44,738 nt of DNA from Candidatus Woesearchaeota archaeon (GTDB lineage Archaea; Nanobdellota; Nanobdellia; Woesearchaeales; GW2011-AR9). The stretch covers positions 7,315 through 52,052 of the forward strand of contig DUFZ01000034.1 in assembly GCA_013331635.1 (NCBI GenBank), written 5' to 3'. Below the pieces are notes generated by a model, which saw only the letters and a program-made list of their open reading frames with translations, had not been told where the DNA came from and did no database searches. Both the position numbers and the translations under genes were made by a program. This document shows, in pieces, positions 2,228 through 40,291 of this stretch. Each line of letters begins with the position of its first letter. Positions within the stretch are counted from its first letter, which is position 1.

Positions 2228-2650
2228 ATGGCTATACCATCTCATGAGGAGCAAATTCGGCAGAAGTATGCGCGGTTTCAGCAGCTGCAGCAGCACATTG
2301 AGCAGATCTCCGCGCAAGTGGAGCAGATGAACCAGCAGCAGGAGGAATTGGAGATATCCAAGAACGCGGTGGCGGAACTGGGCAATACTGCCCCTGATGA
2401 AGAGATATTAGCGCCCATTGCCAACGGTATTTTTTTCAAAGCTAAATTGATGGACACCCAACGATTCGTGATTAATGTGGGCTCGAATGTTACGGTGGAA
2501 AAAAGCGTTTCGGAAGTGGTGGATTTACTTCAGAAAGAACAGGAGAAAATGACGGCAAGGATTACAGAAGCTTCCGCTATTCTGGAACAATTAAGCGAAC
2601 AGGCCTTGAGGATCTATAAGGAAGTGGAGAAACATGTTCAGCAAACTTAG
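2228..2650 (+). CDS. pfdA: Prefoldin subunit alpha
   Basis: 140 aa. It has the prefoldin-alpha arrangement: an N-terminal coiled-coil helix rich in Gln/Glu (about 5-55), a central beta-hairpin region with LAPIANGIFFKAKL and VGSNVTVEKS, and a C-terminal coiled coil. It would form the alpha2-beta4 hexamer that hands unfolded proteins to the thermosome. A TATA-like CTTATAAAAA lies around 2198-2207 and GAGGAG just before the ATG. The last 17 bases overlap the start of ftsY. The pfdA-ftsY order is common in archaea and supports both calls. Confidence 0.92.
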   Translation: MAIPSHEEQIRQKYARFQQLQQHIEQISAQVEQMNQQQEELEISKNAVAELGNTAPDEEILAPIANGIFFKAKLMDTQRFVINVGSNVTVEKSVSEVVDLLQKEQEKMTARITEASAILEQLSEQALRIYKEVEKHVQQT

Positions 2651-4589
2651 GGATAAACTGAAGGGCGCACTGTCAATCTTTTCCCGCAAGACCGAGGAAG
2701 AGGCAGTAGAGAAAAAAGCAGAGCAAGTTCTTGAAAGACCAGTGGTTAAGGAAAAGGTTGAGGAGAATAAACCAAAAGTAGAAAGTAAGAAACCAATTTT
2801 ACCTCACCTTGAGAAAAAGGAGAAAGAAGCACCTTTTACACATAAGAAAGTTGAGGGAAAAAAGAAAGAAACTGTCCAGCCAAAGAACATTGAAAAGGCA
2901 GAAAGGGAAAAAATAGAAATTCAGCCCAAAAAAAATGAAGAGAAAAAAGAGATTCCAAAAAAAGAAAAAATTAAAGGAATTAAAATTACCTATTTTGTTC
3001 ATGGTACTACTACTGATAATGAGCAAGGCCTTTGCACGGGATGGAACCCGGGGAAGCTATCGGAAGCAGGCAGGCAACAATCCATACAGCTTAGAAACCT
3101 TATCGGCAAGGAAGAGTTTGATGTTATTTTCTGTTCTGACTTACAGCGAGCGGTGGATTCGGCAAGATTGGCTTTTGCCAAAGACCCCTATAAGATTGTT
3201 CCTGACCAACGGCTTCGGGAATGTAATTACGGGGAACTCAACGGGCAGGACGAAGCAAAAGTAAAAATTGATGTAACCAAAAGGATCTATCAGCCCTTTC
3301 CACAAGGGGAGAGTTATCATCAGGTAGAACTGCGGGTAGCTGACTTTCTCAATGAAATCTGGAAGCCTCATTACGGGAAACATATTGCTATTGTCGCTCA
3401 CCAGGCGCCGCAATTAGCGCTCGAAGTTTTATTGAAAGGAAAAACTTGGGAACAAGCCTTCAAAGAGGATTGGAGGAATACCAAGAACTGGCAGCCAGGC
3501 TGGGTATATTGGATGGAGCAGGAAGTGAAGGTGAGTGAAGTTCCTGCAGTGCTTGAAGAAGAAAAAAAACCTGAATCAAAATCTGGTTTCTTTGGGAAAT
3601 TCAAAAAAACTTTTACTTTCAAGAAAGAAGAAGCTAAAGCGCCCGAACCAGTGGCAGTTGAAGAGCCAACAGCGGAGCCTAAACTTGCTGAAAAGGAAAT
3701 AGAACAGGAAGAACCGGGCTTCTTTCAGAAAATCAAGCAGACCATTACGACTAAGACTATTTCTGCTGAAAAGTTTGAGGAGTTGTTCTGGGATTTAGAG
3801 CTGGCACTGCTGGAAAATAATGTGTCGGTGGAAGTGATTGACAAAATTAAAATTGATTTGAAGAGCGAGCTGGTCGATAAGCCCCTGCCTCGGGAGGTGG
3901 AAACAAAAATTATGCAAACCTTGACCAGGACTTTAAAGGAAATCTTGTCCTATGAACCAGTCGATATTCCAGCATTAATCCGAAACCAGCAGAAGAAGCC
4001 GTTCATTATTGCTTTCTTTGGCATTAACGGGACGGGAAAGACGACTTCTATCGCCAAGCTGACGCATTATTTACAGCAGCGGAAAATTTCGGTGGTATTG
4101 GCAGCCTGTGATACCTTTCGGGCAGCAGCAATACAGCAATTGGAAGAGCATGCGGACAAGCTCAAAGTTAAGATGATCAAGCATGATTATGGCTCTGATT
4201 CAGCGGCAGTAGCCTTTGATGCGGTGAAATATGCGGAAAAGAATAAGATTGATGTGGTGATGATCGACACTGCCGGGCGGCTGCATAGCAATACTAACTT
4301 AATGGAGGAATTGAAGAAGATCATTAAGGTGACTCAACCGGACTTAAAGATTTTTGTGGGAGAAAGCATTACCGGGAATGACTGCATTGAGCAGGCGAGG
4401 AAGTTTAATGAGCTGGTAGAGATGGATGGGGTGATCTTAACTAAAGCTGACGTGGATGAGAAAGGCGGTGCGCCTTTGTCTATTTCATATACGATTAAGA
4501 AGCCGATATTATTTTTAGGAGTGGGGCAGCGCTATGAGGATTTGGAAGAGTTTGATGCCGACGTAATTATGGAAAGGTTGGGATTGTGA
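2634..4589 (+). CDS. ftsY: SRP receptor FtsY with an inserted histidine-phosphatase domain
   Basis: 651 aa, nearly twice the usual archaeal FtsY. Residues 1-115 are a Lys/Glu-rich linker. Residues about 117-300 form a histidine phosphatase (phosphoglycerate-mutase-like) domain: H123 in FVHGTTTDNE, the SDLQRA..SARLA block, the REC..GELNG glutamate, and a second histidine H256 in IVAHQAP. The Arg of the usual RHG motif is Val122. A second charged linker (about 300-360) leads to a complete NG GTPase: GINGTGKTT from about residue 463, DTFRAAA about 493, DTAGR about 545, TKAD about 603. Family knowledge: FtsY receives SRP-ribosome complexes at the membrane. The phosphatase partner is unexplained. 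The reading frame is continuous, with no in-frame stop, and overlaps pfdA by 17 bases. Confidence 0.93.
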   Translation: MFSKLRDKLKGALSIFSRKTEEEAVEKKAEQVLERPVVKEKVEENKPKVESKKPILPHLEKKEKEAPFTHKKVEGKKKETVQPKNIEKAEREKIEIQPKKNEEKKEIPKKEKIKGIKITYFVHGTTTDNEQGLCTGWNPGKLSEAGRQQSIQLRNLIGKEEFDVIFCSDLQRAVDSARLAFAKDPYKIVPDQRLRECNYGELNGQDEAKVKIDVTKRIYQPFPQGESYHQVELRVADFLNEIWKPHYGKHIAIVAHQAPQLALEVLLKGKTWEQAFKEDWRNTKNWQPGWVYWMEQEVKVSEVPAVLEEEKKPESKSGFFGKFKKTFTFKKEEAKAPEPVAVEEPTAEPKLAEKEIEQEEPGFFQKIKQTITTKTISAEKFEELFWDLELALLENNVSVEVIDKIKIDLKSELVDKPLPREVETKIMQTLTRTLKEILSYEPVDIPALIRNQQKKPFIIAFFGINGTGKTTSIAKLTHYLQQRKISVVLAACDTFRAAAIQQLEEHADKLKVKMIKHDYGSDSAAVAFDAVKYAEKNKIDVVMIDTAGRLHSNTNLMEELKKIIKVTQPDLKIFVGESITGNDCIEQARKFNELVEMDGVILTKADVDEKGGAPLSISYTIKKPILFLGVGQRYEDLEEFDADVIMERLGL

Positions 4590-38055: not shown

Positions 38056-38757
38056 TCAAATTCCGCCCAGAGATTTTCTTTTATTAACTTCTCCAATAAA
38101 CTTTTTCATTCGTTCATCGTAAGGTTCCACAATATCCATTATTCGAGTAGCTTCAGCAGTTCTTTCTTTTAGATAATCAGCATTCCCTTGAGCGTGGTGA
38201 AGCTTAAATCCACTACGCAAAGTAGGTTCAAGAGTATAGGATACTGGGAGCGATACAAAACTATAGGCAACTAAACCTTCTTCTTCCGCTTTTTGGATAT
38301 GGTCTCTGAACGCTTGACTTGGTGCAGAATAAACATTAAATTGTGGCAATGGGGAATGCTTATCCTCATCGAGTCTCGAAGATGAAACTGCTTTATTCTC
38401 ACCATCCCAAAGATGAAGATAGGACGTGGTTGGATTAGGCCGTTGGTCTGATTCTCCCCTATAAACTTGCTCCAAAATCCAGCGATTCAAATGGCTTAGA
38501 ACATCCTCTCTTCCACTGGATTTAGCGCTCCCACTGAGAGTAAGAAAAGAAGGAAAATCTTCCTGGGGGAAAGGGGTTTTCGAATAAAAATTTGCTAAAA
38601 CATACGGTAATTCTTCCTGCAACATCCCATTCGTTGTTCCGCACAGAAGAAAGAACTCTCCTTTCCGACTATCAGCAGGAGCAAGTCCAAAATAATACGA
38701 CTCTTTTCCGGTAATCTCCTGAAGCGCTTCTTCGAGCAAACTAAAAGGTGTGTCCAT
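38056..38757 (-). CDS. Duplicated accessory protein, downstream copy
   Basis: 233 aa. It shares with the gene at 38934 the opening MDTPFSLLEEALQEIT, GKESYYFGLAPAD, the RPNPTTSYxHLWDG block and the C-terminal YLKER..EA.RIMD helix. A 79-base segment (38670-38748) is identical to 39590-39668. No known domain, no signal peptide. Soluble and mixed alpha/beta in appearance. Function unknown. Confidence 0.75.
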   Translation of the reverse strand: MDTPFSLLEEALQEITGKESYYFGLAPADSRKGEFFLLCGTTNGMLQEELPYVLANFYSKTPFPQEDFPSFLTLSGSAKSSGREDVLSHLNRWILEQVYRGESDQRPNPTTSYLHLWDGENKAVSSSRLDEDKHSPLPQFNVYSAPSQAFRDHIQKAEEEGLVAYSFVSLPVSYTLEPTLRSGFKLHHAQGNADYLKERTAEATRIMDIVEPYDERMKKFIGEVNKRKSLGGI

Positions 38758-38933: not shown

Positions 38934-39677
38934 CTATTCAGGAATTTCTGTAGTTACTGCCCATAATGGATTCTTTCCATTAGCTTTTTCAAAGAATGCT
39001 TCCATGAAAGGCACACGTGGTTGTATTGCATCCATTATCCTTATCGCTTCAGTTGCTCTTTCTTTAAGATATGCAGATGAACCATGAACATAGTGCATTT
39101 CAAACTCACTTTGGAAATGTGGCTGAAGAACATACGAGACGGAAGGCGATACTAAACTGTAATCAATAAATCCCTGCGCTTCTGCTTTTTGGATGTATTT
39201 TCTAAAAATCTCACTTGGTGCTGTATACACATCAAACTGAGGCATGCTACTGAGACTTTCTAAACTAGCCTCTTCTGAATCATCCCGAGCAATTGAGGGA
39301 GTATTTTTTCCATCCCACAGATGAATGTAGGAGGTTGTTGGATTGGGTCGTTGGTCTGATTCTCTTCCTTTTACTTTTCCTGTATCTATTTGTCCGGTAA
39401 GCCAATTATTCAAATATTGTATCACTCCTTTTTTTCCATTATCTTTCCATTTTTCTTGTGGACTGAAAAATGAAGGAAGGTCGTCACGTGGAAAAGGGGT
39501 TTTGGTATGAAATCGTGCCAGAAGATAGGGTTCTTCTACTAATAACTTTCCCATCGTTCCACACAAAAGATAGAATTGACCTTTCCTGGTATCAGCAGGA
39601 GCAAGTCCAAAATAATACGACTCTTTTCCGGTAATCTCCTGAAGCGCTTCTTCGAGCAAACTAAAAGGCGTATCCAT
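38934..39677 (-). CDS. Duplicated accessory protein, upstream copy
   Basis: 247 aa from ATG 39677, the position equivalent to the start of its paralogue at 38757; the frame is open to 39746 but those residues are not shared. The two proteins have the same block order and are moderately similar after the nearly identical first 29 residues. The gene begins about 65 bases after the KH gene, and together with the copy at 38056 interrupts the KH-top6B junction. Function unknown. Confidence 0.75.
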   Translation of the reverse strand: MDTPFSLLEEALQEITGKESYYFGLAPADTRKGQFYLLCGTMGKLLVEEPYLLARFHTKTPFPRDDLPSFFSPQEKWKDNGKKGVIQYLNNWLTGQIDTGKVKGRESDQRPNPTTSYIHLWDGKNTPSIARDDSEEASLESLSSMPQFDVYTAPSEIFRKYIQKAEAQGFIDYSLVSPSVSYVLQPHFQSEFEMHYVHGSSAYLKERATEAIRIMDAIQPRVPFMEAFFEKANGKNPLWAVTTEIPE

Positions 39678-39742
39678 TTCAAATGATAAGAGAAAATTGT
39701 TCTTTAAATAATTATGTATACTCCAAAGGTAAAGTAAGATAC

Positions 39743-40291
39743 TCACCCCCCAAACATCATTTCCTTCTTTTTCTTTTCCAGGAAATGATAGACAGTCTTG
39801 TGCATGGAGCCTTCCACCAGCATAGCCACGGCTTGACGGGCGATGCTCACCTGACTTATTTCACCGATGATGCCAATAGTTTTTCCGTAAATGGAAATAT
39901 GTGTTTCGGTGAGTCGTTCAATTTCTTCGCGTGATTTTCCTCCCTTGCCAATCACTCTTCCTTTAAGCCGTTCCATCATATTCTTATTTTTGCCAGCAAG
40001 GTCAGAAATGTCAATGATTTCCAGAGCGTAATCGGATTTTGCCAGCTGCAAGGCAATTTTAGGATTAAAACCCCGGCCGATTGACCTAACTATTTCCCTG
40101 GCTGTAAATAACGTCACCGCATCGTGGCCAGTGATGGCAACTTCACCCTCAGGAGTTATTTCTAAGTTTACGTGCATGGTGCTTTCTATTTCCTTTTTAG
40201 TTTCACCGTTGGTGCCAATGAGTACCGCAATGCGTTCCTGCGGAATCTTAAGTTCATAGGAAAATTCCTGGTTTTCTGAAGTATTGGTCAT
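39743..40291 (-). CDS. KH-domain RNA-binding protein (archaeal Pno1/Dim2-like)
   Basis: 182 aa with two KH units: IPQERIAVLIGTNGETKKEI (first GxxG is GTNG) and RLKGRVIGKGGKSREEIERL (second is GKGG). This is the universal archaeal relative of the ribosome-assembly factor Pno1/Dim2, acting on the small-subunit rRNA 3' region. It follows rio1 by 11 bases, the normal order. The RIO kinase partner supports a role in late 30S maturation. Confidence 0.92.
   Translation of the reverse strand: MTNTSENQEFSYELKIPQERIAVLIGTNGETKKEIESTMHVNLEITPEGEVAITGHDAVTLFTAREIVRSIGRGFNPKIALQLAKSDYALEIIDISDLAGKNKNMMERLKGRVIGKGGKSREEIERLTETHISIYGKTIGIIGEISQVSIARQAVAMLVEGSMHKTVYHFLEKKKKEMMFGG

Follow-up and report, generated by a model that had tools for sequence, protein, structure and literature searches.

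The gene at positions 2634–4589 of the window (the whole 44,738-nt stretch of Candidatus Woesearchaeota DNA analysed here) raises the question of why an SRP receptor should carry an enzyme. FtsY is among the most conserved proteins of the cell; it is regarded as a GTPase for targeting only, and its variable tail as free of enzymes. The sequence-only reading of this locus had described one frame that joins a charged N-terminus, a histidine phosphatase (HP) domain and a complete NG GTPase, and our Pfam and NCBIfam analyses bear out both this composition and its coordinates. It had also stated that no enzyme domain is known in the N-terminal region of FtsY. We likewise found no published precedent: in the open-access full text covered, where absence is weak evidence, no FtsY was tied to a histidine phosphatase or to another inserted enzyme. 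We conclude that HP–FtsY is genuine: a known protein in a new architecture that recurs, the added part being a subfamily, itself intact, of an enzyme fold already known.

The frame runs uninterrupted on the plus strand, as do all features of the gene described below, from 2634 to 4586 (4589 with the stop codon) and encodes 651 aa with no stop or frame break inside. The domain order is an amphipathic N-terminus, a K/E-rich linker, the HP domain, another linker and, at the end, the FtsY NG GTPase in full. Pfam assigns His_Phos_1 (PF00300) to residues 123–283 (E 1.2e-28; 100.6 bits against a cut-off of 21.7, profile positions 6–174 of 194 covered), SRP54_N to residues 364–418 and the SRP54 GTPase to residues 456–649 (E 2.3e-72). 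The protein reaches 311 bits with the FtsY equivalog TIGR00064, above the curated cut-off of 260.7, and the nearest solved structure to its NG part (3723–4580) is an archaeal FtsY (3dm9, E 4e-82). Both N and G domains are complete and a separate Ffh is encoded in the genome, which supports membership in FtsY: an SRP54-type GTPase of 456 aa on contig C23, taken as Ffh, is 29% identical to the FtsY NG part, and the 651-aa protein is the sole FtsY of this genome (1.32 Mb, 95% complete, 91 contigs). A distant histidine phosphatase (28% identity) is also encoded elsewhere in the genome. The gene for the prefoldin alpha subunit (2228–2650, plus strand; PF02996 E 1.9e-20, TIGR00293) precedes ftsY and overlaps its start by 17 bases. 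Close upstream, at 485–904 and 1697–2104, lie two small proteins that resemble PIN toxins as judged by eye. Elsewhere in the window, the minus strand carries two neighbouring near-duplicate genes (38056–38757 and 38934–39746) that share MDTPFSLLEEALQEITGKESYYFGLAPAD.

We determined the distribution of the fusion by searching relatives, the order and the class and by reading the sequences. The HP–FtsY fusion occurs in 21 genomes of nine families and two orders of the class, so that the architecture anticipated in related genomes is present in 20 others. Eight fusions belong to the window's own family (G000, G006, G009, G017, G018, G021, G294 and G625) and thirteen to eight further families (one each in f14, f21, f28, f55, f61 and f63, four in f42 and three in f90, the last from another order of the class). 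Contigs L033, L034 and L035, which stem from independent projects, also show the fusion; the named relatives are Candidatus Woesearchaeota MAGs. FtsY without HP is the majority in the window's family, and a free-standing HP gene, 50–60% identical and distant from ftsY, is found in about 33 genomes. Both forms belong to one subfamily, here called V-type, that lacks the Arg of the RHG motif. Only about 39 of the 334 genomes of the order carry a V-type copy, so the HP is accessory. No genome carries both a free and a fused HP; since only ~1.5 such genomes would be expected among 21 (free copies occur in about 7% of the order), this absence is not significant and was not used as evidence. Among the free V-type copies, the one in G015 (L105) ends in a tail of about 110 residues rich in Lys and Arg. 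The phosphatases of G197, G467, G502 and G013 (L088, L136, L138 and L090) are joined by very short branches even though each comes from a genome of a different family, and recent lateral transfer among them is therefore likely.

Phylogenetic analysis indicates how the fusion arose. In the HP tree, a single clade of all fused copies is rejected (AU p 0.00016), and the HPs of G017 and G625 are nested among free copies with successive branch supports of 98/98, 99/96 and 99/96. On this tree, the HP–FtsY fusion has at least two independent origins; a single origin of the remaining 19 fused HPs was not rejected (p 0.28), nor was monophyly of the six main HPs from family f1 (p 0.48), a result compatible with lateral spread as well as with repeated loss. 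The NG tree mixes fused and unfused FtsYs (15 label changes versus 18.9 with shuffled labels), and with only 6 label changes needed in the HP tree the histories of the two parts differ. The same-genus pair G625 and G020 displays the event itself: their FtsYs align throughout the tail save for two in-frame inserts in G625, (i) the HP, flanked by HKKEPE and EPQPEEKRGFF, and (ii) a NUDIX domain, flanked by FFSKLFGKKEE and PEEKKGFF with less exact borders.

Other enzymes occupy the same region. By Pfam, a Ser_hydrolase accompanies the HP in the FtsY tails of G017 and G294 and stands alone in that of G338; NUDIX is combined with HP in G625 (L127:1349–3967) and occurs alone in G028 (L131:1096–2991), and an HD domain is present in G054 (L179:804–2636, E 1.1e-6). 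The long FtsY tails of many relatives consist of disordered K/E-rich sequence only, with no folded domain. The FtsY tail is thus a recurrent acceptor of unrelated small hydrolases. The same families are found in other hosts as well. A V-type HP forms the C-terminus of a GyrA-type topoisomerase subunit in G503 (L123:1188–4484), and another lies between the phosphotransfer enzyme's own domains in a PPDK_N/PEP-utilizer protein resembling PEP synthase in G264 (L107:2438–4690). The Ser_hydrolase family of the FtsY tails (PF06821) is inserted between the editing and anticodon-binding domains of leucyl-tRNA synthetase in three genomes of the order, G216, G232 and G148 (L195:1968–5210, L196:1953–5195 and L197:976–4209); in two of these three genomes it is 53–54% identical to one FtsY-tail hydrolase, and a literature search for a leucyl-tRNA synthetase with a hydrolase insert returned nothing relevant.

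Two readings of these insertions have to be weighed above all. The one we prefer, at about an even chance, is that the V-type HP inserted into the FtsY tail acts there as an active, autonomous phosphatase that the helices of the tail tether near the membrane while the NG part works normally. Its main rival, serious though on balance unlikely, is neutral or selfish hitchhiking: an accessory gene would have inserted in frame where an essential gene tolerates it, and would persist through its expression and because its loss would easily harm the host gene, the FtsY site having no functional meaning. Such a process would readily produce four unrelated hydrolase types in one tail, V-type domains on GyrA and in the PPDK_N/PEP-utilizer protein, the hydrolase within three leucyl-tRNA synthetases and the lack of inserts in close relatives. 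It sits poorly with the preference for FtsY, which receives 21 of the 23 fusions of the V-type HP, far from an even spread over proteins if FtsY tails are taken as just one of many disordered stretches in the proteome, and with the finding that every insert detected in the tail is a hydrolase. A wider proposal, for Woesearchaeota and near relatives, is that accessory hydrolases repeatedly enter essential core genes in frame (mostly the FtsY tail, also leucyl-tRNA synthetase and GyrA) and that the SRP receptor serves as a modular membrane scaffold for interchangeable enzymes. We advance it tentatively, at somewhat less than an even chance; the carried enzymes would then be metabolic or house-cleaning ones (V-type histidine phosphatase, NUDIX, serine hydrolase, HD).

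The preferred reading of an active phosphatase depends on the state of the catalytic residues. The V-type HP domain spans about residues 115–300 (186 residues, 2976–3533), and, as the sequence-only reading had recognised, it retains both catalytic His residues, the acidic residue and the SDLQRA block, with Val in place of the RHG Arg. The nucleophile His123 follows Val122 (2997–3002), the second catalytic Arg is Arg172 of SDLQRA (3147–3149), the acidic residue is Glu196 of LREC (3219–3221) and the second catalytic His is His256 (3399–3401), which opens an H-Q rather than an H-G motif. Arg172 and Glu196 are invariant in 57 of 57 aligned sequences, and among 56 V-type domains the first His, R172, E196 and H256, likewise T126, N129, G136 and L142, are invariant wherever the position is covered. 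The subfamily has two signatures, TT(T)DN(E) and a C-terminal DWRxxKxWxPGWxY; the latter reads DWRxxKxWQPGWxY in the window protein (residues 279–292, 3468–3509) and is kept in fused and free copies. At the site of the RHG Arg, 55 rows of fused and free V-type sequences have a residue, which is Val in 54 and Ala in one, the sole Arg in the alignment table being that of the outgroup G231. Actinobacterial relatives (32–43% identity), the only matches in a plasmid search for the V-type HP, have Thr at this site in the three sequences read and contain a related W-R-PGW-x-Y; in IMG/VR no V-type relative was confirmed. Since Val or Ala is found throughout the V-type and Thr in the actinobacterial relatives, Val122 is an old trait of the subfamily and not decay of the window gene. 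The earlier suspicion that Val122 hints at a dead enzyme does not hold, as the substitution is fixed in the whole subfamily including its strongly conserved free copies.

Sequence divergence points in the same direction. Pairwise identities in eight pairs of fused proteins are 57–83% for the HP, 67–83% for the NG part and 32–67% for tail and linkers, and between relatives the K/E-rich linker is 48–49% identical versus 57–70% in the HP. The HP domain diverges more slowly than its flanking linkers, and selection therefore preserves it. Because the catalytic residues are invariant, we infer that the domain is catalytically active, although the RHG Arg that it lacks is one of the catalytic residues clustered in characterised enzymes such as PGAM5 (PMC5501728). 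An alternative is a pseudoenzyme that, lacking the RHG Arg, merely binds a phosphorylated ligand or a protein partner; the Val at position 122 and the Thr of the actinobacterial relatives, also no Arg, speak for it. We consider it improbable, as the four other catalytic residues and TTxDN are invariant or nearly so whether the copy is fused, free or in another host protein, a degree of conservation that simple scaffolding would not require.

Structure prediction, too, yields a confident HP fold. From 53 aligned sequences, AlphaFold modelled the HP domain with a pLDDT of 95.9 and a pTM of 0.91, whereas a single-sequence model of the full 651-aa protein (pLDDT 40) was unusable. The fold is phosphoglycerate-mutase-like (Z 21.9 to 4ij6 across 180 residues), and the closest solved structures are PSP1 phosphoserine phosphatase (Z 21.9), PhoE (Z 21.2) and CobC (Z 20.7), with glucosyl-3-phosphoglycerate phosphatase at Z 20.7. 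The two His, the second Arg and the acidic residue place the domain by homology in branch 1 of the histidine phosphatase superfamily, in agreement with the domain search of this region. It is no canonical two-His phosphatase with a full RHG, given Val122, and is filed as a divergent subfamily. None of the substrate-specific equivalog cut-offs of NCBIfam is reached: the domain scores 81.4 bits against 162.9 for CobC/alpha-ribazole phosphatase (TIGR03162), 48.7 against 225 for archaeal dPGM (NF038349) and 56.3 against 350 for PspA (NF045917). A PGAM5-type assignment fails on FVHG in place of the RHS variant and on the lack of WDxNWD within the 651 residues. The listed gene neighbourhoods of free V-type copies, judged by eye, have no neighbour in common that would point to a substrate.

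Where the phosphatase would act depends on the tail. An amphipathic helix, MFSKLRDKLKGALSIFSRK (residues 1–19, 2634–2690), is likely membrane-targeting as judged by its motif, its hydrophobic moment and other FtsYs (PMC2572998); the motif MFxxLKxKLKxxLxxFSK opens the FtsYs whose tails were read, fused or not, and a GFFxKIK stretch closes the tail just before NG. Folded domains aside, the hydrophobic moment of the window protein peaks at residues 5–18, a ranking to be read with the result that none of its tested 14-mers exceeds its own shuffles. The helix is followed by the disordered K/E-rich linker (residues 20–114, 2691–2975; 53% K+E in residues 21–112). In the second linker, GFFGKFKKTFTFKK (residues 318–331, 3585–3626) is an MTS-like stretch that resembles the pre-NG stretch, and at the start of the N domain PGFFQKIKQTITTK (residues 361–374, 3714–3755), conserved in relatives, is a candidate membrane-binding extension by comparison with E. 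coli FtsY; neither has a moment above shuffles. E. coli FtsY is known to have N-terminal membrane anchoring and a membrane-binding N-domain extension, and the same has been proposed for the Pyrococcus protein (PMC2572998). Homology to these FtsYs and the amphipathic sequence suggest that the tail of the window protein is likewise placed at the membrane.

A tethered, active phosphatase could then be pictured as follows. A whole V-type HP gene has been inserted in frame into the disordered N-terminal region of an archaeal FtsY that is single-copy and otherwise ordinary. The phosphoryl group would pass to H123 and be held and stabilised by R172 and H256, with E196 as proton donor, and a residue of the subfamily would substitute for the missing Arg, R281 of DWR...WxPGW being a candidate by guess. 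The substrate would be a small phosphorylated metabolite, as for the free copies. Flanked by the amphipathic helix at the N-terminus and the helix preceding NG, the domain may form a flexible, independent bead close to the cytoplasmic membrane; the FtsY tail would also ensure its steady expression. The NG part would perform normal SRP docking independently of the HP, an independence to which two observations point: the HP also exists as free copies, and unrelated hydrolases replace one another in this part of the tail.

The sequence-only reading had proposed a phosphatase tethered to the translocon that could act on phosphoproteins. Membrane tethering remains the best reading, while a link to the translocon or to phosphoproteins is unsupported. 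Regulation of protein targeting, in which the HP dephosphorylates the SRP–FtsY–translocon system or senses phosphorylated metabolites for it, could be read from physical fusion to the SRP receptor in 21 genomes with at least two origins, but we regard it as improbable. Most relatives, even in the same genus, have an FtsY without HP; free HP genes stand elsewhere in the genome (66 kb from ftsY in G015), and no other tie to secretion was found. Moreover, a secretion-specific role is argued against because other hydrolases share the tail and the same HP is found on GyrA and the PEP-synthase-like protein. That assembly or binning wrongly joined ftsY and a phosphatase gene has a negligible chance: the genome is fragmented into 91 contigs and relatives do have the two genes apart, which had been named together with an assembly join as grounds for doubt, but there is no such join, because the same in-frame architecture recurs in 21 genomes of nine families and in the independent-project contigs, and the reading frame and prefoldin–ftsY order are undisturbed.

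If the preferred reading is true, recurrent enzyme cargo would mean that in some lineages the variable FtsY region works as a functional scaffold, and would show one way in which archaea with small genomes maintain the expression of accessory enzymes or their position at the membrane. In these uncultured Woesearchaeota, unrelated enzymes seem to have been carried time and again by one essential secretion protein, and the V-type itself is testable as a small free-standing protein.

Comparison with known systems places both halves of the protein. A survey of archaeal fusions (PMC11237513) includes one histidine phosphatase fusion, the Sat-HP of a Sulfolobus genome. Neither FtsY nor signal recognition is mentioned in its text, which describes fusions as widespread and DPANN as an exception. 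PSP1 (4ij5), PhoE (1h2e) and CobC (6nru) share with the window HP the whole fold (Z 20.7–21.9), both His residues, the second Arg and the Glu. They differ in that the window HP, at 21–25% identity, has Val for the RHG Arg, H-Q or H-K instead of H-G after the second His and a private C-terminal DWR-W-PGW motif, and is not free-standing. In PGAM5, likewise, the HP domain belongs to a membrane protein whose N-terminal extension is regulatory (PMC5501728), an analogy of placement only. Unlike the window protein it keeps the Arg of the RHG site (R104), part of the catalytic cluster in characterised enzymes (PMC5501728), forms dodecamers through WDxNWD and has no GTPase fusion. The FtsY of Pyrococcus furiosus (3dm9) shares with the window protein the complete NG GTPase, the charged N-terminal part and the role of SRP receptor; its N-terminal part is a charged helical extension with no enzyme domain (PMC2572998), whereas the window FtsY carries a 186-residue histidine phosphatase there.
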